This document shows, one piece after another, positions 16,197 through 30,887 of a stretch of 56,188 nt of DNA. Numbering within the stretch: the first letter of the stretch is position 1; each line of letters opens with the position of its first letter. The stretch is from the NCBI GenBank assembly GCA_903904685.1, contig CAIVDS010000012.1, forward strand, positions 1 to 56,188. The letters are read 5' to 3'. The notes under the pieces were generated by a model, which had not been told where the DNA came from, ran no database searches, and worked only from the letters and a program-made list of their open reading frames with translations. Source of the DNA: an uncultured Verrucomicrobiota bacterium. GTDB lineage: Bacteria; Verrucomicrobiota; Verrucomicrobiia; Opitutales; Opitutaceae. A program made the position numbers and the translations under genes.

Positions 16197-18332
16197 ATGA
16201 AGATTACATCCATTCTATTGTCGTGTTCCGTGGCGTTCGGAACGGCCGGCCTGTCATCCGGCCAGCAGTCGGTCGAAATGGTGCAGTTGCCTATGATCAC
16301 GGTGGTGGCCGACAAACAACCGGCCCCGGTGCAGGATGTGCCGGTGAGCGTGACGGCGGTGACCGGCCAGACCCTTTCCGATGACAGCATCACCACCGTG
16401 AAAGACGCGGCATCCTTCGCGCCCAATGTTTTTGTGAACGAGTTCGGGGCGCGCAAACTGAGCAATCCCTATTTTCGTGGAATCGGCTCCAGTCCGAACA
16501 ATCCAGGCATCACGACCTATATCGACGGCGTGCCGCAGTTGAACGCGAACTCATCGAGCATCGAGTTGCTGGATATCGATCAGGTCGAGTTCGTGCGCGG
16601 TTCGCAGTCGGAGTTATACGGGCGCAACACCGTCGGCGGCCTGATCAACATCACCAGCGGCCAGCCATACCTCACTGCTTGGCACACGGAGGCCGAGGGC
16701 AACTACGGCAACTATAATTTTCGCAAGGTGCAACTGTCGTTGAGCGGGCCGATTATTCCCAATGAACTGGGACTTGGACTGGCCGGCGGTTACACGGCAC
16801 GCGACGGATACACCCGGAATGATTTCACCGGGCATCTCCTGGACACCCGCAGCGATTTTTCCGGCAAGGTGCAACTGCTGTGGCGGCCCGACGGAGATTG
16901 GGAGGTGCGCCTCTTGTTGACCGGCGAACGGGACCGCGACGGCGATTATGCGCTCGGCGATCTCCAGATGATCCGCGCCAATCCGCACCATGTCTCGCAC
17001 GACTTCGAAGGCTACACCCACCGCGACATCCTGGCGCCGACACTGCAAATCGGGCACAAGGGCACTGCGGTGGATTTCACGATGATCACGGGCCTGGTGC
17101 ACTGGCAGACCGATGATATGACTGATTTGGATTATACGGCTAATCCGGTCATGAGCTCCACTCGGAAGAACGCGGAACAGGAGTTGCAGTTCACCGAGGA
17201 ACTGCGTCTCGCCTCGGCAAAGGCGGCTCCGCTGGAGCCGACCGACGACTTGCAGTTAAAATGGCAGACCGGCTTGTTTGCGTTCACCCAGGATTACAAG
17301 CAGGATGCGTTCAACGACCTGAGTTCATCGTTCGCCGGGCTCGGACCGGGGTTCCGATTGACTCAGCAACAAAACGCAGACCTGCAGGATGTCGGGGCTG
17401 GAGTTTATGGACAGACCACGCTCACGGCCTGGGATAAGCTGGATTTCACGCTCGGACTCCGCTGCGATTGGGAACGGAAGGATGCCGGCTTTGAAACAAC
17501 AAACACGGTATTTCTTCCGCCGCCGTTCGGCGGGGTGTTCCCTTCATCGGTATCGGCGGGCAAGGATTACACCGATGTTTTGCCGTCCTTTGCCGTGGAA
17601 TACCGCCTGGCCAAGGACCAGAGGGTTTATGCGACCGCGACGCGCGGCTACAAAGCCGGTGGATTCAATGCCGCCGCCCCAGCGGGTAGTGAATCATACG
17701 GCGAGGAACGCACTTGGGATTACGAACTGGGATGCAAGACCACATGGCTGAACCATCGGTTGCAGGTCAACTTCGCGGTATTCTACATCGACTGGCGGAA
17801 CATCCAGACCAACCAGCCCGATCCATTTTCACCCGGTCAATTCTACATCGCGAACGCCGGCGCCGCCGCCAGCAAAGGCGGCGAACTGGAGCTGATTGCG
17901 CGCCCGGCTCCCAACTGGGATATCTTCGGCGGAATCGGCTACACCGACGCCCGGTTCCTTTCCGGCAGCACCGATGGCGGTGTCAATGTCAGCGGCAACA
18001 AGCTGCAATATGCCCCTGTGTTCACCGCAAATGCCGGCCTGCAATACTCGCTGGCCTTGTGCAAAGAAGCCACCGCTTATGCGCGCGCCGAGGTCGTCGG
18101 GTGCGGTCGTTATGAGTATAACAATCAGAACACCGCCAGCCAGGCGGCTTATGCTCTGACCAATTTCCGTCTCGGTATTCGTGGTGCCCGTTGGTTCGCC
18201 GAAGGCTGGATCAAGAACGCGTTCGACATTAACTATGTGCCGGTCGCCTTTACCTATAATTCCGTTTCCGGCATGATCGGCGAAAGTGGCGCGCCAATGA
18301 CCTGCGGGGTCAGGGTCGGCTTGAATTTTTGA
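16197..18332 (+). CDS. TonB-dependent outer-membrane receptor
   Basis: A 711-residue receptor. MKITSILLSCSVAFGTAGLS is the signal peptide. A TonB-box-like stretch, MITVVADKQ, precedes the plug, which contains PNVFVNEFGARKLSNPYFRG, DQVEFVRGSQSELYGRNTVG and GLINITSG. The rest alternates amphipathic strands and ends in aromatic GVRVGLNF, as expected for a barrel. Length is typical of siderophore, cobalamin or small-carbohydrate receptors; the ligand cannot be assigned from sequence. The gene starts 53 nt after the permease gene and could be co-transcribed with it. Its 3' end overlaps the convergent redox operon by 23 nt. Confidence 0.94.
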   Translation: MKITSILLSCSVAFGTAGLSSGQQSVEMVQLPMITVVADKQPAPVQDVPVSVTAVTGQTLSDDSITTVKDAASFAPNVFVNEFGARKLSNPYFRGIGSSPNNPGITTYIDGVPQLNANSSSIELLDIDQVEFVRGSQSELYGRNTVGGLINITSGQPYLTAWHTEAEGNYGNYNFRKVQLSLSGPIIPNELGLGLAGGYTARDGYTRNDFTGHLLDTRSDFSGKVQLLWRPDGDWEVRLLLTGERDRDGDYALGDLQMIRANPHHVSHDFEGYTHRDILAPTLQIGHKGTAVDFTMITGLVHWQTDDMTDLDYTANPVMSSTRKNAEQELQFTEELRLASAKAAPLEPTDDLQLKWQTGLFAFTQDYKQDAFNDLSSSFAGLGPGFRLTQQQNADLQDVGAGVYGQTTLTAWDKLDFTLGLRCDWERKDAGFETTNTVFLPPPFGGVFPSSVSAGKDYTDVLPSFAVEYRLAKDQRVYATATRGYKAGGFNAAAPAGSESYGEERTWDYELGCKTTWLNHRLQVNFAVFYIDWRNIQTNQPDPFSPGQFYIANAGAAASKGGELELIARPAPNWDIFGGIGYTDARFLSGSTDGGVNVSGNKLQYAPVFTANAGLQYSLALCKEATAYARAEVVGCGRYEYNNQNTASQAAYALTNFRLGIRGARWFAEGWIKNAFDINYVPVAFTYNSVSGMIGESGAPMTCGVRVGLNF

Positions 18333-19899
18333 TCACGTTCCGCAACTCATCCTCGAACGTCAGCGCACCGGTGGGACAGTGCCTCACGCAATCTTCCGCC
18401 ACTTGCTGCAACCCGTCGGCGAGCGGGCCGTTGAGAGGAACGCCGATTTTCAGATCGAATCCACGGCCGATGAAGGTAAGGCCGAGCGGAGCGCGGGATT
18501 GCGCGGCCAATTCGACGCAGATGCCGCACGTGATGCATTTGCCCGGTTCAAAAATCACACCGGCTGGCTGGCGTATGAACTCGAACTTGCGGCGATGTTC
18601 GCCCATGTAGGCTTTTGGATCGACCTCGTAGTTTTCAGCAAGGATCCGGAGCCGGCAGTTGTGAGCCGACCGGCAGTCGCAGTGGCAGCAGCGGCCGGCG
18701 GCGGTTTCGGCTTCCGTGATTAACTCCCGCACGCTCAGCGTCGCGACCGATCCCTTCGCGAGTTCTTGGTATTCTTCGAGCGGCATTTTTGGAATCGTCG
18801 AGGTGAATTCTTTGTGGGCAACGTGGTGGGTCCGTCCCTTCAGAAAGCCGTCCACACATTCCGCCAAAATCCGTCCGTCGCCGACCGACCGCGCCGGGTC
18901 GTAGCCCGAGCGGATCGCGCTGCCCGCCGCAAACACGCCGTGAACGCTGGTTTGGTAGGTGGACGCGTCGATGCGAATGGTGCGTGCCGTGGCCTCGACA
19001 CCAAGCCCGGCAGGGTCGGTTTTTTGCATGTTGCCGACGGCGATGATCACCGCGTCAAACTTCCGCCGGAGTTCGGCGAGGTGAACGTCGCGGCCAAGGC
19101 GCGTGTTCAGGCGCAGTTCGAGGCCGAGCCGTTTGATGACTTCGATTTCGCCGTCGAGCACCGCACGAGGCAATTCCGTTTCCGGCACGCCGTAACGCAT
19201 CTGGCCGCCGGGCTCGGCATGGTCGTCGAACACGGTGCAGTGGTGGCCGTCCTGCATCAGGAAAAATGCCGCGCTCAATCCGGTCGCACCGGCGCCGACG
19301 ATGGCGATGCGCTTCCCGGTTGGCGGCGCGCAGGCGGGCAGGAACGGTTCGGCGGCTGACATGTCCTGGTTGGCGACTTCGCGTTCGATCAACTGGATAG
19401 CAACGGCTCCATCGTATTTGCCTCGGCGGCAACCGGCCTGGCACGGCGCGCGACAGATCCTTCCCAGCACACCGGGAAACACGACGTTTTCCTTCACCAA
19501 TGCGATGGCTTCGCGCATCCTGCCTGCGGCGACAAGCCGGATGGCGGCGGGAATCTGGAGCCGTGCGGGACAGACGCGCTGGCAGACGGAGATGCAGTCG
19601 CCGAGGTGGTCGCTGAACAATAGTTCCATCGCCGCCTTGCGCGCCGCCTTGACCTCGGGCGTTTCGCTGGCGACGACCATGCCGGCGGTGACTTTCGTCG
19701 AGCACGCCGGCGACAGGCGCGTATCATTTCCAATCCGCACGACGCACGCCATGCACGACGGCCTGTTTTCCTTTACGTCGGCGAGATGGCAGAGCGTCGG
19801 GATGTTCAGCCCGAGCCTGCGCGCGGCGTCGAGCACCGTGCTGCCGGACGGCACGGTGACGGACTGGCCATCGATGGTCAGCGTGATGGGATTATTCAT
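18310..19899 (-). CDS. Ferredoxin/GltD-like FAD/Fe-S oxidoreductase lacking an NAD(P) domain
   Basis: A 529-residue cytosolic iron-sulfur flavoprotein. Residues 1-80 form a NuoG/HydA-type [2Fe-2S] domain (CHLADVKENRPSCMAC, later SPACSTKV). A Cys-rich helical domain like the N-terminus of GltD follows (CISVCQRVCPARLQIP, RICRAPCQAGCRRGKYDG). The FAD site is IAIVGAGATGLSAAFF. Family members normally have a second dinucleotide fold; here AVIIAVGNMQKTD runs almost directly into FAAGSAIRSGYDPARSVGDG, so the NAD(P)-binding half appears absent. The C-terminus holds CCHCDCRSAHNC, CITCGIC and CVRHCPTGAL. The gene begins inside the NuoEF-like gene with an 8-nt overlap, which implies a complex in which the NuoF-like partner supplies NADH binding. 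The start MNNPITLTIDGQ is the usual ferredoxin-domain beginning. Confidence 0.85.
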   Translation of the reverse strand: MNNPITLTIDGQSVTVPSGSTVLDAARRLGLNIPTLCHLADVKENRPSCMACVVRIGNDTRLSPACSTKVTAGMVVASETPEVKAARKAAMELLFSDHLGDCISVCQRVCPARLQIPAAIRLVAAGRMREAIALVKENVVFPGVLGRICRAPCQAGCRRGKYDGAVAIQLIEREVANQDMSAAEPFLPACAPPTGKRIAIVGAGATGLSAAFFLMQDGHHCTVFDDHAEPGGQMRYGVPETELPRAVLDGEIEVIKRLGLELRLNTRLGRDVHLAELRRKFDAVIIAVGNMQKTDPAGLGVEATARTIRIDASTYQTSVHGVFAAGSAIRSGYDPARSVGDGRILAECVDGFLKGRTHHVAHKEFTSTIPKMPLEEYQELAKGSVATLSVRELITEAETAAGRCCHCDCRSAHNCRLRILAENYEVDPKAYMGEHRRKFEFIRQPAGVIFEPGKCITCGICVELAAQSRAPLGLTFIGRGFDLKIGVPLNGPLADGLQQVAEDCVRHCPTGALTFEDELRNVIKNSSRP

Positions 19900-22324
19900 G
19901 TTTGGCCAGCGGTTCTGGCAGCGGTTCCGTGTGCGAATGACCGGGGCACTCCACCCCACCGCTCATGACAGTGATGGCGTTTTCCGGACAGTCCACGCGA
20001 CAGACATCGCATCGGGTGCAAAGGTCGGTGTTTATCCTGTGACGGCGATATGGCGTCAGCGGGATGGCGTTGACGGGACAATGCTGGGCGCAAAGGGTGC
20101 AGCCGGTGCAATTGTCCTGGACGACGTATTGAATCAACGGCTTGCACTTGCCCGCCGGGCACCGGCCGGCGATGTGCGCCTTGTATTCGTCGCGAAAATA
20201 TCGGAGCGTGGTGATGACCGGGTTCGGCGCGGTCCGTCCGAGGCCGCAAATGCTGCCCTGCGTGGTGAGCGCGGCGAGCTGCGTGAGTTCATCGAGATCC
20301 GCGCGCCGGCCTTTGCCTTGGCAGATTTTGTCGAGGATCTCATACATCCTCGTCGTGCCGATCCGGCAGAAAGTGCATTGGCCGCAGGATTCGTCACGCA
20401 GGAACGACATGAAATAGCGCGCCATATCGACCATGCAGTCGTCCTCGTCGAGAACGATCAAGCCGCCCGATCCCATGATCGCACCCGCGGATGCCAGCGC
20501 TTCAAAATCGACCGGCGTGTGGTCGAGCGCCGAGGGGATGCAGCCGCCCGAGGGGCCGCCGATTTGCACGGCCTTGAACTTTTTCCCGTTCGGCACACCG
20601 CCTCCGATGTCCTCGACGATCTCGCGGACCGTGATGCCCATCGGCACCTCGATAAGCCCGGCGCGGTCAATCTTGCCGGCCAGCGCGAAGACTTTCGTGC
20701 CTTTGCTTTTTTCCGTTCCGTGAGCGGCGAAAGCCGCCGCGCCGTTGCGGACGATCCACGGCACCATCGTGAACGTCTCGACGTTGTTGATCAGCGTCGG
20801 CCGCTGCCACAGTCCGCAATCGGACGGATAGGGCGGTTTCATTCGAGGGATGCCGCGCCGACCTTCGATCGACTCGATCAACGCCGTTTCCTCGCCGCAT
20901 ACAAACGCCCCGGCACCCTCGAAGATATGAAGCTTGAAGTTAAATTTGCCCCCCATGATGCCATTCCCGAGGAACCTGCGTTCCTCCATCCGTCGGATCA
21001 CCTCGCGCAGACGGCTGACGGCTCGCGGATACTCGGCGCGGACGTAGATGTAGCCTTCCTCCGCGCCGACGCAATATGCGGAAATCAACATTCCCTCGAT
21101 CACGCGGTAGGGGAAAGATTCCATCAGCATCCGGTCCATGAACGCACCGGGATCGCCCTCGTCGCCGTTGACGATCACATGCTTCACACTGTCGTGCGAC
21201 TGCGCCTCCCTCACCCGCAGCCATTTGACGCCGGTCGGAAAACCTGCGCCGCCACGTCCACGGAGGCCGCTTTTGGTAATCGCGGCAATGGTCTCCTCCG
21301 GGTCGCGTCCGAGCACTTGGCCGAGTGCGGCGAACCCATGCTGCGCGAGATACTCGTCGAGGTCGAGCGGGTCCATCTCGCCAAATCCTTCTGTCGCGAT
21401 GCGAATCTGCCGTTCCATGAACGCCGTGACCGCCTTCCCGCTGGTGTCGAGCGTGTGTCTGCTGATTTTTTCAAGGCCGCCGTCGGCGGTCACAAGTTGT
21501 TCCAGCGTCCTGTCGATCCACCGTGCAAACCGACGGCGCACACTCATCGGGCGGAAATGCCGGCGCACAATCCCCTCGGCTTCCCCAGGGCCGACCTTCG
21601 CATAAAACGCCACCGGCCCTCCAGGCAACCGGACCTCGACGATGGGCGTCTGGTGACACATGCCGACGCAACCGACCCGTTTGACCGGCGCGTCGATGCC
21701 AAAATCCTTAACGATCCGTCGTAATAAGTGGAATAGCTCATCGCTGCCCTTCGCCATGCAGCACGAGCCTAGGCCGACGCGAATCTCGGCGCCATGCCCG
21801 TTGCGGCGACTGGCGACGGTGTCCACGTCGGCGATCGTTTCGTGCCGGGTCGCCCGAAAATCCTCGACCATTACACCGATGGTGTCGGCGGTCAGATTGC
21901 CATAAGTCGTGTGATCCACCTGGACGACCGGCGCCAGCGTGCAGCAACCGAGACAGGCGACGCGCTCGACGGTGAACTCGTTGTCCGGGCAGGTGTCATG
22001 ACCGTCGTAGATTTGAAGCTGCCGGTGGATATGATTGTGAATATTTTCCGAGCCTTTGACATGGCAGGCGGTGCCGTGGCAGACGCGCATCGTGTGCAGT
22101 CCGACTTCGCGCAGCCGGAACTGGTGGTAAAATGTCGCCACGCCGATCAAGTCCGATAGCCGGATGCCGGTCACTTCACTGACTCGACGCAGCGCCGGTT
22201 CAGGCAGGTGCCGGTATTCATGCTGGATGCCCTGCAAAATCGGAATCGTCGCCGCAGGCAGGAGGCCCGTCCGCTCGAGCAACCGGTCAACAAAGGCTTC
22301 GTGGTTCGCGTCGGGCATGGTCAT
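19892..22324 (-). CDS. NuoE-NuoF-like fusion with extra [2Fe-2S] and 2[4Fe-4S] domains
   Basis: An 810-residue NADH-oxidising flavoprotein like the electron-input module of complex I or bifurcating hydrogenases. Residues 1-160 resemble NuoE, with C82, C87, C124 and C128 as [2Fe-2S] ligands. Residues 181-250 form a second thioredoxin-like domain with C188, C219 and C223. The NuoF core follows with the FMN/NADH loop GRGGAGFPTGVKW, NGDEGDPGAFMDRM and the [4Fe-4S] site SCGQCTFCRIGTTR. The tail holds two [4Fe-4S] motifs, CTGCTLCAQHCPVNA and CTRCDVCRVDCPENA. No hydrogenase, formate dehydrogenase or Nuo membrane gene lies in the window, so the electron partner is probably the overlapping flavoprotein. 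Its ATG overlaps the upstream propeller stop by 4 nt. Confidence 0.92.
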   Translation of the reverse strand: MTMPDANHEAFVDRLLERTGLLPAATIPILQGIQHEYRHLPEPALRRVSEVTGIRLSDLIGVATFYHQFRLREVGLHTMRVCHGTACHVKGSENIHNHIHRQLQIYDGHDTCPDNEFTVERVACLGCCTLAPVVQVDHTTYGNLTADTIGVMVEDFRATRHETIADVDTVASRRNGHGAEIRVGLGSCCMAKGSDELFHLLRRIVKDFGIDAPVKRVGCVGMCHQTPIVEVRLPGGPVAFYAKVGPGEAEGIVRRHFRPMSVRRRFARWIDRTLEQLVTADGGLEKISRHTLDTSGKAVTAFMERQIRIATEGFGEMDPLDLDEYLAQHGFAALGQVLGRDPEETIAAITKSGLRGRGGAGFPTGVKWLRVREAQSHDSVKHVIVNGDEGDPGAFMDRMLMESFPYRVIEGMLISAYCVGAEEGYIYVRAEYPRAVSRLREVIRRMEERRFLGNGIMGGKFNFKLHIFEGAGAFVCGEETALIESIEGRRGIPRMKPPYPSDCGLWQRPTLINNVETFTMVPWIVRNGAAAFAAHGTEKSKGTKVFALAGKIDRAGLIEVPMGITVREIVEDIGGGVPNGKKFKAVQIGGPSGGCIPSALDHTPVDFEALASAGAIMGSGGLIVLDEDDCMVDMARYFMSFLRDESCGQCTFCRIGTTRMYEILDKICQGKGRRADLDELTQLAALTTQGSICGLGRTAPNPVITTLRYFRDEYKAHIAGRCPAGKCKPLIQYVVQDNCTGCTLCAQHCPVNAIPLTPYRRHRINTDLCTRCDVCRVDCPENAITVMSGGVECPGHSHTEPLPEPLAKHE

Positions 22325-23982
22325 TTGCTATCGATGCAAAATAGGTTTTTTTTGCCGCGTAACAACAGGCGTTTGCCGAGCGGCACGGGGCTGGCGCAAC
22401 ACTCCTCGCCGAGTGCGCCCCGTCCGAGCTCCTTGTAGGCGTCCCCTGGCTCGATCACCCACGAGATTCCCTTGCGGCTTACGAGAACCAACGCATTGCC
22501 AGCGAGGGTCGGCGATGCATAGAAAGAATCCTCGAGGTCGTGCGTCCAAATGACTTTCCCGGTCTGCAATGCGTAGCAGGTCAGCAACCCTCCGCCGCTG
22601 ACGCAATACACCCGCCGTCCGTCGCTGACCGGACTGACCGCATCCGGCACGCCTTCCTCGGACTGCCACGTGATGGTGGCGGCACCGCAACGCAGTCCGA
22701 TGACGGCCGTGTTCGGTGCGACGGCGACGATCATGTTGTCAGTCATGATCGGCGAAGGCGCGACATCGCTGTCGAGGCATTTGCTCCGCCAGAGTTCCTT
22801 GCCGTCAATCGGGTTGTAGGAAATGACAAACGGGTTGGCGCAGGTGATCAACTGCAGCTGGCCGTCGATATCAAACACCACCGGCGACGACCACGAACCG
22901 GCCACTTCGCGTCTGACCGCCCATCGCTGCCGACCGGTTAGCGTGTCGAGCGCCAGCAGCATGGACTTGCCGTCCTCGGGCTGGCCGCGGTCGATCTGAA
23001 TCAGCAACCGGTCTTGGTAGATCGCCAGAGACGCGGCGTATCCATATGTGTTATCCAACGGCCCGATGTTGCGCGCCCAGACTTGCCGACCGGCAAAATC
23101 AAACGCCGCGATCTCGCCGGTCGGAAACAAGGCATAGACACGTCGTCCGTCGGTGACCGGCGTCGGCGCAGCCAGGCTCGTATCCTCGCCGACCTGCGGT
23201 GTCGGCAGACGCGCGCCACCAGGAAGCTTGATCGTGGCCGACCACACGAGCGCACCGGTGTCGAAATCGAAACGGAAGACGCTACTTTGTGTCTTGTCCG
23301 CGCCGGTCACGAACACTGCGTTGTCCCAGACCACCGGTGAACTCAACCCGTGCAACGGGATTGCTGTTTTCCAGCGAATGTTTGTTCCGGTCTTTGCATC
23401 CCATGTGATCGGTACATCGGCTTTCGGCGCGACACCCAGCCCATGAGGCCCGCGAAATGACGGCCATTGCCGCTGAATCTCGTCAGCGGATGGATAGGCC
23501 GATGCCATTGCAACGGCTGGCATGATCGGACTGGTTGTGATGCGTTCCGGTAAACTGACGCGCTGCGTCGCGACGGCGACCGCTGCCACCACGACAACCG
23601 CAAACATGCCGGTCACCGCATACCGGGCGAGTGCCGCCGTGCGTTTCTCTTCTCCGGCCTTCCGCACACCCCAAGCTTGCGGATCCGGCAATCGACGTCG
23701 AGAAACCCGCACGAAATGGGCGCTGGCCAGAAACACCGCCAGCCCGGCCAGCAGCGCACGGCTGGCATCGTGCGAAAGCTGCAATCGATAAAATGTATCA
23801 TGGCGCAGTTGGAGATCGAGTTGGCGTATCCGCACCTTCAATGCCTCGTCCTTTGGCCGGCTCCGCAGTTCGTCGTTCAGGAGGACGATTTGCCGGGAGT
23901 TGACCAGCATCGAGACTTTTCCGCGCACCGCATCATATCCCAGCAGACCAGCCAATATCAGCACAAACAGCCCCGCCGCCAC
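22321..23982 (-). CDS. Membrane-anchored PQQ-like beta-propeller protein
   Basis: About 553 residues from the GTG at 23982. Membrane segments lie near residues 1-18, 72-88 and 120-138, the remainder being a periplasmic propeller that begins WPSFRGPHGLGVAP. Repeats include WDNAVFVTGADKTQSSVFRFD and GRQRWAVRREVAG. It ends CASPVPLGKRLLLRGKKNLF. The start is uncertain: the frame is open upstream to 24082 with no ATG, while an ATG at 24085 lies one base out of frame, so a longer N-terminus through a frameshift or a non-ATG start is possible. The role is likely structural or a ligand-binding partner of the redox genes. It is the only gene of the operon set off by more than about 11 nt (112 nt after the UroD-like gene). 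Confidence 0.8.
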   Translation of the reverse strand: MAAGLFVLILAGLLGYDAVRGKVSMLVNSRQIVLLNDELRSRPKDEALKVRIRQLDLQLRHDTFYRLQLSHDASRALLAGLAVFLASAHFVRVSRRRLPDPQAWGVRKAGEEKRTAALARYAVTGMFAVVVVAAVAVATQRVSLPERITTSPIMPAVAMASAYPSADEIQRQWPSFRGPHGLGVAPKADVPITWDAKTGTNIRWKTAIPLHGLSSPVVWDNAVFVTGADKTQSSVFRFDFDTGALVWSATIKLPGGARLPTPQVGEDTSLAAPTPVTDGRRVYALFPTGEIAAFDFAGRQVWARNIGPLDNTYGYAASLAIYQDRLLIQIDRGQPEDGKSMLLALDTLTGRQRWAVRREVAGSWSSPVVFDIDGQLQLITCANPFVISYNPIDGKELWRSKCLDSDVAPSPIMTDNMIVAVAPNTAVIGLRCGAATITWQSEEGVPDAVSPVSDGRRVYCVSGGGLLTCYALQTGKVIWTHDLEDSFYASPTLAGNALVLVSRKGISWVIEPGDAYKELGRGALGEECCASPVPLGKRLLLRGKKNLFCIDSK

Positions 23983-24094
23983 AGTGAGCGGAAGCGCTAT
24001 CTTGGAGAAAATGTCAGGCGTTTTCAGATTGGTTGCGGCGGCGATTGGTGCGTGTTTGTTGTTGCTGAAGAAAAGCCGACTTCATTTTTGGCCC

Positions 24095-25387
24095 TCAGCG
24101 GCCACCGTACATCGCACTAATCTCTTCACGGGCGATCTTGCACCATTCGTCGAATCGCTCGATCCGCCCTTCGCAAGTGTGGGTGTCTTTCAATATCATC
24201 TCCAGCACGCAACGGTGTTCAGCCGCGGCCTCAAGTGTGTGCCGGATATACTTGCGGATGCTTTCCCGCCGGAATTCACCGACCAAATCGGTCGGGCGCG
24301 GTTTCCACGAGAAAATGCAGCGACCGCCAAGTTGCGGCGCACAACGCTCCACATCGGCATACGGGCTGATGGAGATTCGCCGCATGTTGGGCGCCCTCAT
24401 GATATCCGCGATTTTTAACGTCAGATCATCGCAACATCCGTAGCCGGAAAGTCCAAAAGGTTCGATGAGCTTTCTCTCGTACTGAAGCGAAAATTCCTCG
24501 TGCATCGCGGGTGAAACCATCGTCAATTCCTGTGCCTCAGCCGACACCCACATGTCAATGGGTCTCACATGGTCTGGGTCGAACCCGGGTGCGGGCAGTT
24601 CATCAGTCCAGCCGTTTCCTCCTGAAGAATGATAGGTGTTGTCATTGTTCAAAGCCAGCAGCCCCATCTTCTCATACTGTCCGACCAGCTGCCGGTTGCC
24701 CTCGGCGAGGAAGCCGATCGCCTCGTGCAGCCATTCCGGGTTCTCGACCATGTCCATCATCATCTCTTCCAACCCTCGGAAGGCCGTCCACTGAGCCATG
24801 AGGTGGAAACTGACATGGGCCATTCCGCTTGAGCGGACCTCGATCAAGTCACCGACCAGTTCCCTCACCAACTCGAAATCCTCCCTGGATTTCTTCTCGT
24901 CATAAACGACCTCCGGCATGCGCAGTTTTTTAAGATCGGAAAACTCGATGATCACGGGGTCGTGTTTCCATGCGCCACGTTCGGCGTCGCTCGTTATGTG
25001 CCTGGGTTTCACACCCCATCCCGTATTTGAAATCGTCTTGGGAACCAGAACAAACAGATCGGCGCAGTTGTCTGTCTGGAAATGTTCGTAAGAGTAGATC
25101 GACATCCTGAGTTGTTTCTCGATCGAGGCCAAAAGCTCGTGCTGACAGCGTGGCCCCTGAAACTCCGGCGCTTTCTGAAATATCTCCCCCCAGCTCCCCT
25201 CTGGGAATACGAGAATCATCGGACGTTCCGGACGCAGGCCATTATGTTTCTTCCAAAGCCGTATCCTCTCTCTCATCACATCGGACCGGACGATCTCGGC
25301 ATACCTGGCGACCACATCGCGAAACAGTTTTTTATCCGCATCCGAAATCATGCGCCCCACATTTCCTTTCTTTTGTGCAATATCCAT
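24095..25387 (-). CDS. UroD/MtaA-superfamily protein, putative methyltransferase
   Basis: A 430-residue TIM-barrel protein of the uroporphyrinogen decarboxylase / methylcobamide methyltransferase superfamily. It is longer than UroD (about 350 residues) and lacks the heme-pathway N-terminal signature, so it is unlikely to make heme. Cys318-Cys319 in SGYGCCDDLT fall where the MtaA-type zinc H-x-C site lies, and Cys405 in DTHTCEG fits the position of the third zinc ligand; the expected His is a Tyr here. This favours zinc-dependent methyl transfer, but no B12-binding corrinoid protein is in the window. It lies 11 nt after a CobW-type metallochaperone gene. A second start, MISDADKK, 12 codons in, has AAAGGAAA upstream and is an alternative. 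Confidence 0.75.
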   Translation of the reverse strand: MDIAQKKGNVGRMISDADKKLFRDVVARYAEIVRSDVMRERIRLWKKHNGLRPERPMILVFPEGSWGEIFQKAPEFQGPRCQHELLASIEKQLRMSIYSYEHFQTDNCADLFVLVPKTISNTGWGVKPRHITSDAERGAWKHDPVIIEFSDLKKLRMPEVVYDEKKSREDFELVRELVGDLIEVRSSGMAHVSFHLMAQWTAFRGLEEMMMDMVENPEWLHEAIGFLAEGNRQLVGQYEKMGLLALNNDNTYHSSGGNGWTDELPAPGFDPDHVRPIDMWVSAEAQELTMVSPAMHEEFSLQYERKLIEPFGLSGYGCCDDLTLKIADIMRAPNMRRISISPYADVERCAPQLGGRCIFSWKPRPTDLVGEFRRESIRKYIRHTLEAAAEHRCVLEMILKDTHTCEGRIERFDEWCKIAREEISAMYGGR

Positions 25388-25398
25388 CTAATGGCAAC

Positions 25399-26430
25399 TT
25401 ATCCTGTCTGATGTGCGGCGTCCAGACTGCAAAGCGCGGCATCGACCACGGATGAAAGCTCCGGCTCTTCCATGCCAAAAACAATCGCGTTGACGGTCAG
25501 AATTACGGGGCCGGAAAGCGCATCCAGATCGGCGCTCCATCGCGGCGATTCATCGGGGCGCGTCACGCTGCATCCCGCGCACTGACCCTGGTGATCCTGA
25601 GCGAACATCTTGATGTGGGCGATCAATCCACCCGCTGCGGATGCGGCCCGGGCAATGGCAACAAGCATTTGCCCGACGGCTTTCGGAAATCCGGCGGTGG
25701 TGATCGCATCACGCTGGCGTACGCAAACCGCCGGATGTTCACCATGCCCGCGGTGATGGCCGGCTTCGTCGTGCCCATGATGAGACTCATGATCACACGG
25801 GTCGCCACAACAAAGCGAATACCCCGTGGGGTCTCTATCCAACATGAAACGGATCACTGCCGGGAGATCATCGCCTGACACGAGCGACACTTCGGCAATC
25901 AAGGAATAAGGCGAGAATTCCCGCGCCTGTTCGCGAAACGCTGCGCGAAATTCCTCCGTGACCGCATCGATTTTATTAGCCACGACGATTCCGCCGCTCC
26001 GCAAATATGCTTCGACAAACGGAAGCGAGAACCAATTTTTCAGCCTCTGTATCCGGGCAAGATCGAGCAGAAACAAGAATCTGATATCCATCGGAGGCAT
26101 CGGATTGTCACGCAAGATTTGGCCCAGCATATTGGGGGCCGCCATTCCTGAAGTCTCCAAAATCACCACATCGGCCCGATCCTCCGCGACGATTTTTATC
26201 ATCGTGGAAACAAGCCCTACCTGCAGATTGCAGCAGATGCATCCGCCCAGCAAGGGGCTCACGTCAAGCCCGGCGGCTTTCAGAAGTTGATCGTCGATGC
26301 CGATCTTCCCTATTTCATTCTGGACGATCACCAGTCGCTGGCCTTTCTCCAGGCAGAGCCAGCGGGCCAGCCTCAAAATCAAGGTGGTTTTCCCGGAGCC
26401 GAAGAAGCCGCCGACAACGTAAAGTTTCAT
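25399..26430 (-). CDS. CobW/G3E-family metallochaperone GTPase
   Basis: A 343-residue G3E P-loop GTPase that probably loads metal or a metal cofactor into a client. Walker A is GGFFGSGKTT at the N-terminus, the CxCC metal site is GGCICCNL near residue 65, and the guanine motif is ANKID. A His-rich loop (HESHHGHDEAGHHRGHGEH), near residues 214-232, probably binds Zn, Co or Ni. A Cys pair, CAGC, lies late in the chain. Two ATGs occur at 26436 and 26430; AAGGG abuts the first but sits 6 nt from the second, so 26430 is preferred. Placement between the polyferredoxin and the UroD-like gene suggests it serves the latter or another metal enzyme in the operon. Confidence 0.88.
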   Translation of the reverse strand: MKLYVVGGFFGSGKTTLILRLARWLCLEKGQRLVIVQNEIGKIGIDDQLLKAAGLDVSPLLGGCICCNLQVGLVSTMIKIVAEDRADVVILETSGMAAPNMLGQILRDNPMPPMDIRFLFLLDLARIQRLKNWFSLPFVEAYLRSGGIVVANKIDAVTEEFRAAFREQAREFSPYSLIAEVSLVSGDDLPAVIRFMLDRDPTGYSLCCGDPCDHESHHGHDEAGHHRGHGEHPAVCVRQRDAITTAGFPKAVGQMLVAIARAASAAGGLIAHIKMFAQDHQGQCAGCSVTRPDESPRWSADLDALSGPVILTVNAIVFGMEEPELSSVVDAALCSLDAAHQTG

Positions 26431-26439
26431 GTTCATCCC

Positions 26440-27720
26440 TTAAAAAATGGCCGGACTATTGGGAGGCGCCAGCGGGGCGCCTTCGGGCACGGGCAGGCCG
26501 AGGCGTTGCAGTTCCTGTGGACACGACTTGAAACAGCGGGCGCAGGCGACGCATCGGGTCTGGTCCGCTTCGTAGTCGTAGCGTTTGCGGCGGATAGCGA
26601 GCGAGATCAGTTTACCGCCGGCCACCAGCGCGATCCACACGCCGCACCACCGACCTGCCAGCACATACCGGTCTCGCACCGATTGCGCATCGGCATACAA
26701 ATTCTCCACCGGGGCGCCGGTTGCGCGGAATGCGGCCGACGCATCGGTCGTATCCGTGGCTTTGCCGGTCTCCTCGAGATAAATCCGTTCCGCCAGACTC
26801 ACGGTCCGGTGTTTGTGCGCCAGACGTTTCCCCGTCAATCCGCCGAGCCAGCCTCCGGAAACAAGGAGAAGAGGCAGCAGCAAAATCATCGCGGCAAGTC
26901 GTCGTTTGTCTGTCTTTACGGTGCGCGAAGGGGTTTCGATGGTGGCTGGATTGATGGCATCAAACGGGCATGACTGCTCGCACAACCGACACTGCGTGCA
27001 GGTGTCCGGGGTGATCCGGACCCGCCACTTCGCCACGTTCGACGCCATGCCTAGAATCACGCCATAGGGGCACAGGAAGCGGCAGTAGGGGCGCCCGATA
27101 AACATGCCGAACACCAGAAGCTCGATACCGCACGACACCATCAATGCGCTGCCGCTGAACCGAAAAATGGTCACGAACGGATCGTATTGGCAGATGATAT
27201 ACCCGCCGCCCGTCGCCGCAAAAATCATAGCCAGCCCGAGATACATGTATGGGATCAACCGCAGCCCGTGCTCCAGCCACACCGGCACTTTGACGGGTTT
27301 GATCAACATCAAATCCTGCAACGCGCCGTGCGGGCAGACCGACGAACAAAACACACGCCCGAACAAGAGGGCGAACACCAGCGGAGCCAGTCCGAAAGCC
27401 AGCACAGTTGCGGGCACACCGAATGACGAATCAGCGAGTCCTTGCGCGATGTTTTGAATGCTACCGATCGAGCAGATGCATCCTTTCCGCCAAAATCCGA
27501 AATACATAACGGAAAAAGTCCCCAGCGCCACCAGGCCGCGCCGTGACCGGCCCCTAAGCGCCAACCAAGACGCCAGCGCGAGTGCCATTAACAACACGAT
27601 GACATCGAAATGCTCCATCCACGGCCCGCGTGGCAGCGGAGCAAGGAAGCCGGGTAGCTTGTGGCCGGTTTCGGTGAATTCAGGCGGCGGGAACCGCTGG
27701 GCGGCGAGTAACCAAATCAT
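26440..27720 (-). CDS. NapH/NosR-like membrane polyferredoxin
   Basis: A 426-residue inner-membrane Fe-S protein with about five to six helices. Two CxxxCP motifs (GRVFCSSVCP ending at 130; GRPYCRFLCPYG ending at 220) flank the membrane core, as in NapH, CcoG and the C-terminal half of NosR. The first cytoplasmic [4Fe-4S] motif is CTQCRLCEQSCP at 241-252; a second, CVACARCFKSCP, lies at 390-401. C81 and C83 (GCICS) form a further Cys pair. The FMN domain of NosR is absent. The expected role is to pass electrons between the quinone pool or cytosolic carriers and periplasmic Fe-S proteins. Its ATG overlaps the stop of the Tat ferredoxin gene by 4 nt, so the pair resembles NapG-NapH. Confidence 0.9.
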   Translation of the reverse strand: MIWLLAAQRFPPPEFTETGHKLPGFLAPLPRGPWMEHFDVIVLLMALALASWLALRGRSRRGLVALGTFSVMYFGFWRKGCICSIGSIQNIAQGLADSSFGVPATVLAFGLAPLVFALLFGRVFCSSVCPHGALQDLMLIKPVKVPVWLEHGLRLIPYMYLGLAMIFAATGGGYIICQYDPFVTIFRFSGSALMVSCGIELLVFGMFIGRPYCRFLCPYGVILGMASNVAKWRVRITPDTCTQCRLCEQSCPFDAINPATIETPSRTVKTDKRRLAAMILLLPLLLVSGGWLGGLTGKRLAHKHRTVSLAERIYLEETGKATDTTDASAAFRATGAPVENLYADAQSVRDRYVLAGRWCGVWIALVAGGKLISLAIRRKRYDYEADQTRCVACARCFKSCPQELQRLGLPVPEGAPLAPPNSPAIF

Positions 27721-28265
27721 ACCTGTTCCCCGCGGCTTTTGAACTTGTATGGCTGGTCAACCGGGACGCGGTGGATGGCGTCGGCGGGACAGGCGCGTGC
27801 GATCGAGCATTCGTTGCAATGGACGCAAACATTATGGCGGATTTGGAGATGGAGCGAACCGTTGCCGAACATTGTGCAGCCCTTGACGCATTTGGCGCAG
27901 CCGACGCAGAGCGGCTCGTTTATCGTGTATTCGTAATACGGATCCTCGACAAATGTGCGAAAGATCGCGCCGGTGGGGCAAAGCTGGTTTTCGGCGGCGG
28001 TGTTAAGGCTGTTTGGCTGGGGTTCGAAGTAACCGGTGCACAACCGGCAGTAACCGCATATGTCAAAACTGTGGACGCACTTGACCGCCGACTGTTCGAG
28101 CACGCACTCGGTCGCACACAGGCCGCACTGGGTGCATTTCCATGGATCAATCTGCCAGACCTTGCCGTCAGCTTTTGCCTTGTGGACAAATGAGGCGAAC
28201 AGGCCGCCTAAACCGACCATGGTGGCGCTTCTAACCGCGTTGAGGAAGAAATCGCGCCGTTTCAT
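27717..28265 (-). CDS. Tat-exported four-cluster ferredoxin (NapG-like)
   Basis: A 182-residue periplasmic ferredoxin. MKRRDFFLNAVRSATMVGLG is a twin-arginine signal followed by a hydrophobic stretch. Four Cys groups follow: CTQCGLCATEC at 44-54, CGYCRLC at 70-76 with an isolated LCP at 95-97, CVGCAKCVKGC at 120-130, and CVHCNECSIARACP at 147-160. This is enough for four [4Fe-4S] clusters, as in NapG and DmsB-like carriers. It probably accepts electrons from, or donates them to, the membrane polyferredoxin immediately downstream. It overlaps the upstream 62-residue gene by 4 nt. Confidence 0.9.
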   Translation of the reverse strand: MKRRDFFLNAVRSATMVGLGGLFASFVHKAKADGKVWQIDPWKCTQCGLCATECVLEQSAVKCVHSFDICGYCRLCTGYFEPQPNSLNTAAENQLCPTGAIFRTFVEDPYYEYTINEPLCVGCAKCVKGCTMFGNGSLHLQIRHNVCVHCNECSIARACPADAIHRVPVDQPYKFKSRGEQV

Positions 28266-28450
28266 CGCTTAGCCACCTTCCATGGCAAAGAGCAGTTATC
28301 CGCAACGTCACAGCCGCCGCATCCGCCTCGTGCCTCACAATCTTGCCGCCGACGGGACAGCACGATGCCGATCAGGCCGACTGCGCCCAGCAATGTGATG
28401 CGGACAGCGGTTTTAAAAAAATCGCGTCGTGTCTGCGGTCGGGCGTTCAT
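28262..28450 (-). CDS. 62-residue Tat-like, Cys-rich small protein
   Basis: A short protein with the twin-arginine start MNARPQTRRDFFKTAVR, a hydrophobic segment (ITLLGAVGLIGIVLS), then a Cys-rich tail with five Cys in CEARGGCGGCDVADNC. It could bind a metal or Fe-S cluster at the periplasmic face, or be a membrane-bound assembly factor. Four-nt ATGA overlaps at both ends with genuine neighbours make it very probably a real gene. I do not recognise a named family. Confidence 0.75.
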   Translation of the reverse strand: MNARPQTRRDFFKTAVRITLLGAVGLIGIVLSRRRQDCEARGGCGGCDVADNCSLPWKVAKR

Positions 28451-29478
28451 GCGATTTTCGGCGCGAAGATGCGGACGGTCTTGGCGGCAGGGTCGAGTGC
28501 CAGCACACGACCGGCGGAATCGCAGGCAACGTCAAAACCGAAACCGATCTGGCAATTAGCACAGGCTTTCTTTGCGAGATCCAAATCTTTCACGAGGTGT
28601 TCCGGACCTGCGACAACGCCTTCAAAGTTGCCTTTGGCATCGTAAATCTTGATTCGGTTCAGACCTTTCTCGCTGGTGACGAATTTGCCATCGGGGCGGC
28701 GCGTGAAATAGACTGGGTTGCAGCAGCCACAGAAACCCTCGACCGCCATCGACGGCGCACCCCAGCCGAGTTCGAATCTGCCGTCGGCGGTATAGGCTTC
28801 GATCTGGTGGCGCCCGGGGTTGTTCACCCAGAGCAGGCCGTCGTCTCCAAGCAGCACATGAAAATACGGACTCGGAACCACAAACCCGGGATTGCCGTCG
28901 CCGTGGTGTCCGAAGCGATTGAGCAATTTGCCGTTTGCGTCGCAATGGATGATCTCTCGGCGACCGGCATCAGCGAGGAAGATAGCCTGGCCGGAATCGG
29001 CTACGCCAGTGAGATAAGTTTTAGCGCCGAGCGGTTCGCTTCGGGCAAGTTGCCTGCCATTTTCGGCAAAAATTTCGAGATGATCTTTCAGCGCCACGCA
29101 GATCCGCGTGCCGGTGGCAGCCAGGGCAATAGGCTTGTCGGCGAGGGTAATGGCCGATTGGAGTCGCCCGTTAGGATCGAAGCATTTTACGCCGCGGTCG
29201 CCGCCGATGAACAGCGTGTTATTGGGACCAACAGCGATGCATTTCGGGTCCTCAAATCCGGTCGGTATTGATGCGGTTTCTTGATAGAGCAACTGCGCGG
29301 GATCGGTGTGTGCGAACTGGCTGACATCGTAAGTGAACCGCGGGTCCAGTGGAGATTTTCCAGTTTTCGCGTTGTCCGTACGTTTCGTGCAACCGGCAAG
29401 CCCGCCGGTGAGTGCCAGAAGGCCCGCACCCGCGGCGCCTAAAAAGCTGCGACGATTAAGTTTTGAATCATTGTTCAT
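28447..29478 (-). CDS. Tat lipoprotein NHL-propeller with CxCC and CxxC motifs
   Basis: A 343-residue exported lipoprotein. MNNDSKLNRRSFLGAAGAGL is a twin-arginine signal, with a lipobox LAGC placing the lipidated Cys at residue 30. NHL-type strands include CIAVGPNNTLFIGGDRGVKC and VLLGDDGLLWVNNPGRHQIE. Unusual for an NHL protein, EGFCGCCNPVYF (C250, C252, C253) and KKACANCQIG (C306, C309) with C319 could hold a metal or cluster. ATG at 29478 forms an ATGA overlap with the upstream propeller gene. The likely role is a periplasmic partner of the Tat ferredoxin, in electron transfer or metal handling. Confidence 0.85.
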   Translation of the reverse strand: MNNDSKLNRRSFLGAAGAGLLALTGGLAGCTKRTDNAKTGKSPLDPRFTYDVSQFAHTDPAQLLYQETASIPTGFEDPKCIAVGPNNTLFIGGDRGVKCFDPNGRLQSAITLADKPIALAATGTRICVALKDHLEIFAENGRQLARSEPLGAKTYLTGVADSGQAIFLADAGRREIIHCDANGKLLNRFGHHGDGNPGFVVPSPYFHVLLGDDGLLWVNNPGRHQIEAYTADGRFELGWGAPSMAVEGFCGCCNPVYFTRRPDGKFVTSEKGLNRIKIYDAKGNFEGVVAGPEHLVKDLDLAKKACANCQIGFGFDVACDSAGRVLALDPAAKTVRIFAPKIA

Positions 29479-30887
29479 GGATTTTCCCCGGTGACATCCA
29501 GACAAACCATTTGCGTGAGGTCGCGCGCCAGCAATCGGTTGCCTGCGAGTGCCAGTGGCGCCCACGAGTCGTGACCGTGGAGAACGCGATTTTTCACCAG
29601 TGGACGATACCCTGCGGGGCTGGCCTCTGCAAGTGTCAGCACGCCCTCGTCGTTCATCACAAACAACTTTCCGCCTGCGATCAGGAACGGGCCGAGGCCG
29701 AACTTGTCATTGCTGCCGCTGGTCCAGACGACCTTGCCCGTCAGGTCGATGCACGCGAGTTGTCCATCGGGACGCACGCCGTAAATGTGGTTCTGATACA
29801 GAATCGGCGTCTGCTGCGTCGCACCGAACACGGACGCAGGAAGACGGAATAATTCCACCGGAACGATTTTACCGTTGGTTTCTCGGAGTTGCAGCATTTT
29901 GGCCCCAGCATTGTAGCCGCCAGAAAGGAAAATTTTCCCGTCACCGGCGTCAACCGGCGAAGGAACCGTTGCGATCGAGATGATCCATTTGTCGGTTTCC
30001 CATAATACCGCACCGTCGCTGGCCGATACGCCCACCACACCGCGGCTGCCACAATAGACGTAGTGGAGTTTGCCGGCAAACTCCACAGGCACAATCGACG
30101 AGTGCGTCATTTTCCAATCGTGCGGATTGGGGGTCTTCCACACGACTTTTCCCGTCGCCAATTCGACGGCGATCATCAACGCGCCGCCGCCCGGAGCAAG
30201 GATGACACGGTCGTCATCCACAAGCGGACACTGTCCGGCATACCATTCCGGGACTTCGGCGTTATATTCCTTCACGAGGTCGATACCCCAGACAAACTGG
30301 CCGGTTACGGCGTCGAGGCAGACGACGTGGCATTTCGGACCGAGCGAGACGACATACCTGCCCACCAACGTCGGCGTCGTCCGGCTCATGCCGTGGTTAC
30401 GTTTCACTTTCACCGGGTAGGAAAATCGCCAGATTTCTTTGCCGTCAGCCAGCGAGAGGCAGCGCAGTGCGTCGGCGAGATTTTTCTGGTCGTAATCGAG
30501 CACATAAACCCGCCCGTCGCGCACGGCCGCGCCGGCGTAGCCTTCGCCGAGATCGACGGTCCAGAGCGGCGTCCATTTCTGGCCAATGGTTGCCGCATCG
30601 GCGGCGATGCCATTGCCATTGGGGCCGCGGAACCTTGGCCATGAGCCTGGTAACGCAGCGGGTGAGCCGGTGCCGACGATGAATTTTCCGGAGAGAAATG
30701 GTGACGATTGATCGGCTTGGCCGGCGGCACTGATACGGTCCATTCCGGGCTGGCGTTCCTTGATGAATCCGGACGGCAGCCGGCTGTTGCAAAGGATGAA
30801 GGCAAACACGGCACCGAACGCGGCGACAAGAATCAGCGCGGTAATAATCACCTGCTGCCCGGATTGTTTCGGTTGAGCTGGGAGCAT
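29475..30887 (-). CDS. Membrane-anchored PQQ-like beta-propeller, first gene of the redox operon
   Basis: A 470-residue protein with one N-terminal membrane segment (VIITALILVAAFGAVFAF), no cleavage site, and a periplasmic propeller that begins WPRFRGPNGNGIAADA. Repeats include DGRVYVLDYDQKN, SLADGKEIWRFSYPVK and AVTGQFVWGIDLVKEY. GGGAAAAG-type purine sequence (GGGAAAAG) directly precedes the ATG. As the first gene of the operon it is divergent from another propeller gene across a 126-nt region. PQQ binding is not shown; the name refers to repeat type only. Confidence 0.85.
   Translation of the reverse strand: MLPAQPKQSGQQVIITALILVAAFGAVFAFILCNSRLPSGFIKERQPGMDRISAAGQADQSSPFLSGKFIVGTGSPAALPGSWPRFRGPNGNGIAADAATIGQKWTPLWTVDLGEGYAGAAVRDGRVYVLDYDQKNLADALRCLSLADGKEIWRFSYPVKVKRNHGMSRTTPTLVGRYVVSLGPKCHVVCLDAVTGQFVWGIDLVKEYNAEVPEWYAGQCPLVDDDRVILAPGGGALMIAVELATGKVVWKTPNPHDWKMTHSSIVPVEFAGKLHYVYCGSRGVVGVSASDGAVLWETDKWIISIATVPSPVDAGDGKIFLSGGYNAGAKMLQLRETNGKIVPVELFRLPASVFGATQQTPILYQNHIYGVRPDGQLACIDLTGKVVWTSGSNDKFGLGPFLIAGGKLFVMNDEGVLTLAEASPAGYRPLVKNRVLHGHDSWAPLALAGNRLLARDLTQMVCLDVTGENP

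Follow-up and report, generated by a model that had tools for sequence, protein, structure and literature searches.

A UroD-superfamily barrel with an altered metal site adjoins a COG0523 GTPase in an Opitutaceae genome

In an uncultured Opitutaceae bacterium, a gene for a CobW-type GTPase adjoins a gene for a UroD/MtaA-like barrel protein. Does the GTPase supply metal to the barrel, and is the barrel a methyltransferase? We analysed the pair in a stretch of 56,188 nucleotides (the window), contig C12 of a genome assembly with 114 contigs and a total of 3.2 Mb. In 12 of 12 same-genus genomes the SRP54 homologue is 90–94% identical to the protein encoded on this contig, which is therefore no stray. 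The two open reading frames proposed by a sequence-only reading of the locus are confirmed on the minus strand (Table 1). Both genes are intact, with the barrel gene 11 bp downstream of the GTPase gene. That reading placed the end of the pair at 26430, which is the Met3 start of the GTPase; a start there agrees with the N-termini of aligned relatives.

Table 1 Coordinates of the gene pair, its neighbours and the corrinoid cluster of the same genome
Feature	Position	Strand	Remark
Redox operon	18310-30887	minus	
PQQ-like beta-propeller protein, N-terminal hydrophobic stretch	22321-23982	minus	directly downstream of barrel, 112 bp
UroD-superfamily barrel, YGCC family, 430 aa	24095-25387	minus	
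COG0523 (CobW/YjiA-type, G3E) GTPase, 345 aa	25399-26436	minus	likely start at 26430
NapH/NosR-like membrane Fe-S protein	26440-27720	minus	directly upstream, 3 bp from GTPase gene
Corrinoid cluster: homocysteine methyltransferase, RACo, corrinoid protein, two UroD paralogs	L037 7831-14477 (own contig C92)		

The barrel is barely recognised by standard family models. Pfam URO-D (PF01208) matches it with 19 bits (E 7.5e-4), below the gathering cut-off of 23.9 bits, and reaches E 0.1 or better in 4 of the 10 members of family alignment A1. An NCBIfam search of the barrel returned nothing at E 0.01, searches of the PDB with the barrel (phmmer and profile) gave no credible match, and the UroD paralog C92a had no PDB match. 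An AlphaFold2 model of the barrel was built from 7 sequences (mean pLDDT 75.5). UroD structures are its best Foldseek matches by E-value and give the highest structural score (Z 17.4), followed by MtaA 4ay8 (Z 15.0, rmsd 4.0, 275 aligned residues); MetE-type proteins score lower (Z about 10–12). A profile of 40 family members also aligns with ten UroD-superfamily paralogs of the same genome (hhalign, E 7.3e-14 local and 6.4e-18 global). We assign the barrel to the UroD superfamily, as the sequence-only reading had proposed, with a predicted UroD/MetE-type TIM barrel fold. Active sites of TIM barrels sit at strand ends. The predicted strands of the model end at residues 317 and 399, so that Cys318-Cys319 and Lys400-Asp401 would lie at strand ends: Tyr316-Gly317-Cys318-Cys319-Asp320 is placed at the end of one predicted strand and Lys400-Asp401-Thr402-His403-Thr404-Cys405 just past the last.

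UroD structures being the closest matches, the barrel might simply be the uroporphyrinogen decarboxylase of the heme pathway. We regard this as exceedingly improbable and reject it. The genome carries a separate, clear UroD on contig C91 (372 bits). The sequence P-x-W-x-M-R-Q-A-G-R, which we take to be the N-terminal UroD motif, is present in this hemE product and in none of the 40 family members. Aligned to hemE, the family profile gives E 0.12, and a tree splits the 40 members from the ten other UroD-superfamily proteins with a support of 0.995. Grouping with heme-pathway UroD, which the sequence-only reading had named as one outcome that would overturn it, is therefore not what tree, motif and hhalign show. 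Single paralogs of the methyltransferase-like type align better (E 3.1e-7 and 9e-7 for two, 4.7e-5 for a third), as does the MtaA-like protein L051 (E 7.1e-5). Three UroD paralogs from contig C92 match no better than hemE (E 0.075–0.2).

The barrel belongs to an uncharacterised, divergent branch of the superfamily, which we name here the YGCC family; our literature searches, which were not exhaustive, recognised no published description of it. Relatives of the barrel were found at 6 loci in Planctomycetota, Spirochaetales, Clostridia and Verrucomicrobia records. The family occurs in at least 25 of 384 sampled genomes of the class of the window (E up to 1e-10, own genome included) and in at least 39 of 392 genomes of a Planctomycetota sample (E up to 1e-40, G680 included). 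No homologue of the barrel was detected in 12 of 12 same-genus genomes. The 75 members that we aligned were selected on profile score and length, without regard to the motif; sequences under 330 residues were left out, which removed two of 37 new matches, and the same minimum was applied to the 40-member set. The motif YGCC[E/D] is exact in 73 of the 75. Cys319 is invariant (75/75), Tyr316, Gly317 and Cys318 are each present in 74, and residue 320 is Glu in 68 and Asp in 7. Asp401 is kept in 74 members. Residue 403 varies, its five commonest states being Ser (31), His (25), Tyr (7), Glu (5) and Lys (2). Position 405 is Cys in 13 of the 75 (4/40 in the smaller set). Altered motifs occur at L228 (3509-4756) and L232 (6373-8879): one member reads YHGCE, a natural His-x-Cys at the place of the motif, and a tandem pair of family members includes one reading FGCCE.

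How does this motif relate to the zinc site of the superfamily? The comparison set A3 comprises ten UroD-superfamily proteins of the same genome, nine methyltransferase-like proteins and hemE, with His-x-Cys in 7 of 10. Four hhalign settings, concordant though not independent of one another, and a joint MAFFT alignment all pair Gly317 with the His of His-x-Cys and Cys319 with its Cys, the metal-Cys position of the superfamily. His403 aligns with the third ligand, which is Cys312 in L051, and the MAFFT alignment has the same register with His403 at the third position. An earlier hhalign run with fewer sequences gave the same register for Gly317 and Cys319, its alignment stopping before residue 403. 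L051 itself is in register with solved MtaA (4ay7) at the HICG and GC positions. The register is further supported by the natural member that reads Y-H-G-C-E there. In the MAFFT alignment the third position is His in 8 and Cys in 2 of the ten A3 proteins, so His403 is not unusual for the superfamily.

By this register, the barrel does not keep the standard His-Cys-Cys zinc site; it has Gly317, Cys319 and His403 where MtaA and MtbA have the ligands of His-x-Cys...Cys. The YGCC family as a whole lacks the standard site, but the Cys at the centre of that site is invariant and has another Cys next to it. The sequence-only reading had numbered Cys318, Cys319 and Cys405 correctly and had proposed them as zinc ligands, with Tyr in place of the usual His. 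Its altered site, with Cys319 at the metal-Cys position, holds up; the roles given to Tyr316 and Cys405 do not. Tyr316 as a substitute for His was rejected, as it is off by one from Gly317 in the hhalign and MAFFT alignments; the alignment of the 75 members likewise counts against it. Cys405 was likewise rejected as a family ligand: it is off by two from His403 and is rarely Cys in the family. Variation of this site has precedents. In the available part of Kountz and Balskus (PMC10418091), S-methyltransferases of the UroD superfamily use His-Cys-Cys, and in O-methyltransferases the Cys residues are replaced by carboxylates or non-ligands. The zinc site of MetE consists of His618, Cys620, Glu642 and Cys704, as given in the part of PMC539065 consulted, and CdmB is described, in the accessible portion of PMC13222342, as a UroD methyltransferase that does not need zinc.

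The GTPase is a member of Pfam cobW (PF02492; 101 bits against a cut-off of 20.7). Its alignment A4 contains a Walker A motif (GxxGxGKT) and GCICC, which assigns it to COG0523/G3E. The His-rich loop and CxCC seen in the sequence-only reading recur in the translation as a Cys/His-rich loop and GCICC (Cys66, Cys68 and Cys69). The full loop is absent from six aligned relatives, of which L155 has a short His run. A true CobW of cobalamin biosynthesis was rejected (73 bits against an NCBIfam cut-off of 332 bits). Matches at E 1e-30 or better occur in at least 5 other genomes of 387 in the phylum, with 28–38% identity.

If the barrel is a corrinoid-dependent methyltransferase, its corrinoid partner would be encoded outside the window. 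A genome-wide search for B12-binding domains (PF02310) gave three matches and none on the contig of the window, in line with one of the two possibilities of the sequence-only reading, a partner encoded elsewhere. One match is a free-standing corrinoid protein with both B12-binding domains on contig C92. The other two lie inside large open frames of 898 and 786 residues, which we take, by eye, for methionine synthase and methylmalonyl-CoA mutase. C92 also carries the reductive activator RACo, a homocysteine S-methyltransferase (Pfam S-methyl_trans) and UroD paralogs, so that both components of a corrinoid-dependent system, corrinoid protein and activator, are present there and none in the window. 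Genome-wide, URO-D has 17 matches at E 0.01, 16 of them over the cut-off. The B12 riboswitch suggested as a further lead produced a single match on contig C64, which at 24.9 bits stays under the gathering score of 31.5. This sub-threshold match (C64:58848-59085, L036) has a TonB-dependent receptor-like gene on one side and a split methionine-synthase-like pair on the other, both labelled by eye.

The gene neighbourhoods of barrel relatives show corrinoid surroundings for part of the family. We examined 40 contexts, 39 of them distinct, as L084 is on the same contig as L008 and was counted once; many are truncated at contig ends, and several stem from a single genome. Other UroD-superfamily genes occur in 11 of the 39, RACo, a corrinoid protein and a homocysteine methyltransferase in 5 each, and MtaB in 1. 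A GTPase lies about 3 kb from the barrel relative in one context (L182), which was fetched because of its GTPase; without it the counts are 0/38 for the GTPase and 10/38 for other UroD-superfamily genes. At L015, L016, L083, L095, L098 and L101, in related genomes, arrays of some 7–9 UroD-superfamily genes stand close to RACo, a corrinoid protein or a homocysteine methyltransferase. Among 34 contexts from the Planctomycetota sample, 9 contain other UroD-superfamily genes, and no RACo, corrinoid protein, homocysteine methyltransferase, MtaB or GTPase was found. Direct adjacency of GTPase and barrel was seen in the window and in none of 73 other contexts. As a comparison set, 20 contexts of the NapH operon in other genomes contained none of these corrinoid or UroD genes and one GTPase.

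A second theme appears in the same neighbourhoods. Ten neighbour proteins were picked by eye from 52, and are no random sample; by family name six of them are of carbohydrate type (two alpha-L-fucosidases, DUF5703, a xylose-isomerase-like protein and two Gfo/Idh proteins), the DUF5703 protein having a GH95 match just under the cut-off. The remaining four are PhyH, a short-chain dehydrogenase, DUF4380 and PhoD. YGCC genes stand beside alpha-L-fucosidases, the DUF5703 protein and the xylose-isomerase-like protein at L088, L233, L007 and L004, a possible link to sugar catabolism. The neighbourhoods thus tie part of the family to corrinoid genes, with sugar catabolism as a rival theme.

It is possible that the barrel works with neither metal nor corrinoid, for example in sugar breakdown, the vicinal Cys residues acting as thiols or being structural and the GTPase being unrelated. 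We consider this rival doubtful, though it deserves weight. It would account for the carbohydrate-type neighbours and for the missing corrinoid, RACo and MtaB genes in the Planctomycetota contexts; no ligand is conserved at positions 317 and 403, and CdmB, as far as described in the consulted part of its report, shows that a UroD methyltransferase can lack zinc. Apart from the variation at positions 317 and 403, these observations also count against the reading that we favour below, as do the loss of His-Cys-Cys, the adjacency confined to the window and the poor match of the C92 paralogs. The rival is opposed by the invariant Cys319 at the metal-Cys position of the superfamily, with Cys318 nearly as constant, and by the relatives that lie within corrinoid clusters. 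The ten neighbours were selected, and the truncation of many contexts weakens the absences on which it draws.

Relatives of the GTPase also have corrinoid genes around them. Fifteen GTPase contexts were compared, 5 from the phylum search and 10 from genomes chosen for carrying the YGCC family; RACo occurs in 4, MtaB in 1, a corrinoid protein in 1 and the UroD superfamily in 5. According to family models, the L175 context holds an AcsV-like RACo, a corrinoid Fe-S protein subunit, ACS and CODH. At L176, in a genome with a 50%-identical barrel, a Pfam MtaB gene adjoins the GTPase. GTPase relatives stand beside a DUF3786 protein and RACo at L173 and L175, and L173 has genes similar to the CODH/ACS set of L175 (labels by eye). 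The idea of a GTPase working with corrinoid methyltransferases is not new, because such a linkage has been published: COG0523 subfamily 13 co-localises with mtaA, mtaB and mtaC in the part of Haas et al. 2009 (PMC2770081) that was available.

The pair is flanked by the NapH and PQQ-like propeller genes and belongs to a series of nine minus-strand genes separated by no more than 181 bp. The other seven genes encode two PQQ-like propellers, an NHL-type protein, a polyferredoxin, the NapH-like protein, a NuoEF fusion and a GltD-like flavoprotein. The NHL-type protein and the polyferredoxin have Tat-like signals, judged by eye. The NuoEF and GltD-like part presumably recalls the Stn transhydrogenase. 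A NapH homologue occurs in at least 59 of 387 genomes of the phylum, own genome included, and none of the other 58 is marked as the same class or nearer. Of the 20 operon contexts, 19 contain the polyferredoxin, 18 the NHL protein, 15 NuoEF and 14 GltD; NuoEF and GltD are both missing from the three whose NapH is closest (L133–L135). In relatives without the pair, a PQQ-like propeller usually follows NapH. At L097, one of the barrel contexts, a weak NapH match (29% over 185 residues) lies about 5 kb away. No homologue of the NHL gene was detected in 12 of 12 same-genus genomes. When the SRP54 stretches of four same-genus genomes are compared with the window, the listed DNA matches longer than 200 bases leave about 5.1–37.2 kb of it uncovered, and no empty site could be delimited. 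The simplest account may be that the redox operon was acquired horizontally and that the GTPase–barrel pair was placed between NapH and the PQQ-like propeller.

This setting suggests another role for the GTPase. It could serve the redox operon (Fe-S membrane protein, polyferredoxin, NuoEF/GltD-like proteins) or a general zinc or cobalt supply, with the barrel as a separate passenger. The gene run and the lack of a conserved GTPase–barrel adjacency speak for such a role, which we nevertheless judge unlikely: none of the 20 operon contexts has the barrel and one has a GTPase relative (L135, 28% identity, about 7 kb away), and 16 GTPase contexts contain no match to NapH, polyferredoxin, NHL or PQQ-propeller proteins and two GltD-like matches.

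We tentatively read the barrel as a methyltransferase whose site has been remodelled, which uses a corrinoid protein in trans and is perhaps metallated by the GTPase; we put the probability of this reading at about 40%. This estimate was lowered slightly because the C92 paralogs match the family no better than hemE does and because the choice of L182 was biased. In place of the usual His-x-Cys...Cys zinc site, the family would have Gly-Cys-Cys-Glu/Asp and a third position that varies (His403 in this barrel). The heteroatom of the substrate would be polarised by a metal or thiolate at Cys318/Cys319, with Asp401 or His403 possibly taking part. A methyl group would move between this substrate and a cobalt carrier whose gene lies in another part of the genome; one candidate is the C92 corrinoid protein, with RACo to keep it reduced. 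The COG0523 GTPase may supply either the barrel or its corrinoid partner with the metal. The activity of the barrel, its metal and substrate, the direction of methyl transfer and the interaction with the GTPase are all putative parts of this scheme, and the link between GTPase and barrel is drawn from one adjacency and family-level associations. That the corrinoid partner lies elsewhere, one of the two possibilities of the sequence-only reading, agrees with the corrinoid protein and RACo on C92 and with the corrinoid proteins near some relatives.

A bolder version would make the YGCC family a distinct class of methyltransferases. It would have a new Cys-Cys-(Glu/Asp) metal centre, loading by a dedicated COG0523 GTPase in some hosts, an unusual methyl donor and a corrinoid carrier shared across the genome. 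Sugar methyl ethers come to mind as the donor because of neighbours such as the alpha-L-fucosidases. We think this version quite improbable.

The barrel resembles the methylcobamide:CoM methyltransferases MtaA and MtbA in its UroD-type fold, in Cys319 at the first metal-Cys position and in the corrinoid clusters around some relatives. Unlike these His-Cys-Cys zinc enzymes, it has Gly317 for the zinc His, the third position of its family is mostly Ser, His or Tyr, with Cys not among the five commonest residues, and the protein is below the Pfam URO-D cut-off and has about 40 extra N-terminal residues. Replaced metal ligands or the absence of zinc are also known from the UroD-superfamily O-demethylases and dehalogenases (MtvB, OdmB, VdmB and CdmB), as compared by the published descriptions available in part. 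The GTPase is likened, by neighbourhoods, to COG0523 subfamily 13, where the part of Haas et al. 2009 at hand links GCxCC GTPases to corrinoid methyltransferase genes; unlike those, the GTPase of the window stands beside a YGCC-family barrel inside a redox operon. The mlp clusters, as presented in the portion of Kountz and Balskus 2023 consulted, likewise combine several UroD-like proteins with a corrinoid protein or RACo, as seen around L015, L016, L083, L095 and L101. Mlps keep His-Cys-Cys with few exceptions, whereas the barrel of the window does not.

The barrel marks an uncharacterised branch of a versatile methyltransferase superfamily. Its YGCC motif is nearly invariant although it differs from the textbook zinc site, so that the metal content and the chemistry of the family can be tested directly. 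The linked GTPase gives access to the question of how such enzymes might acquire their metal.
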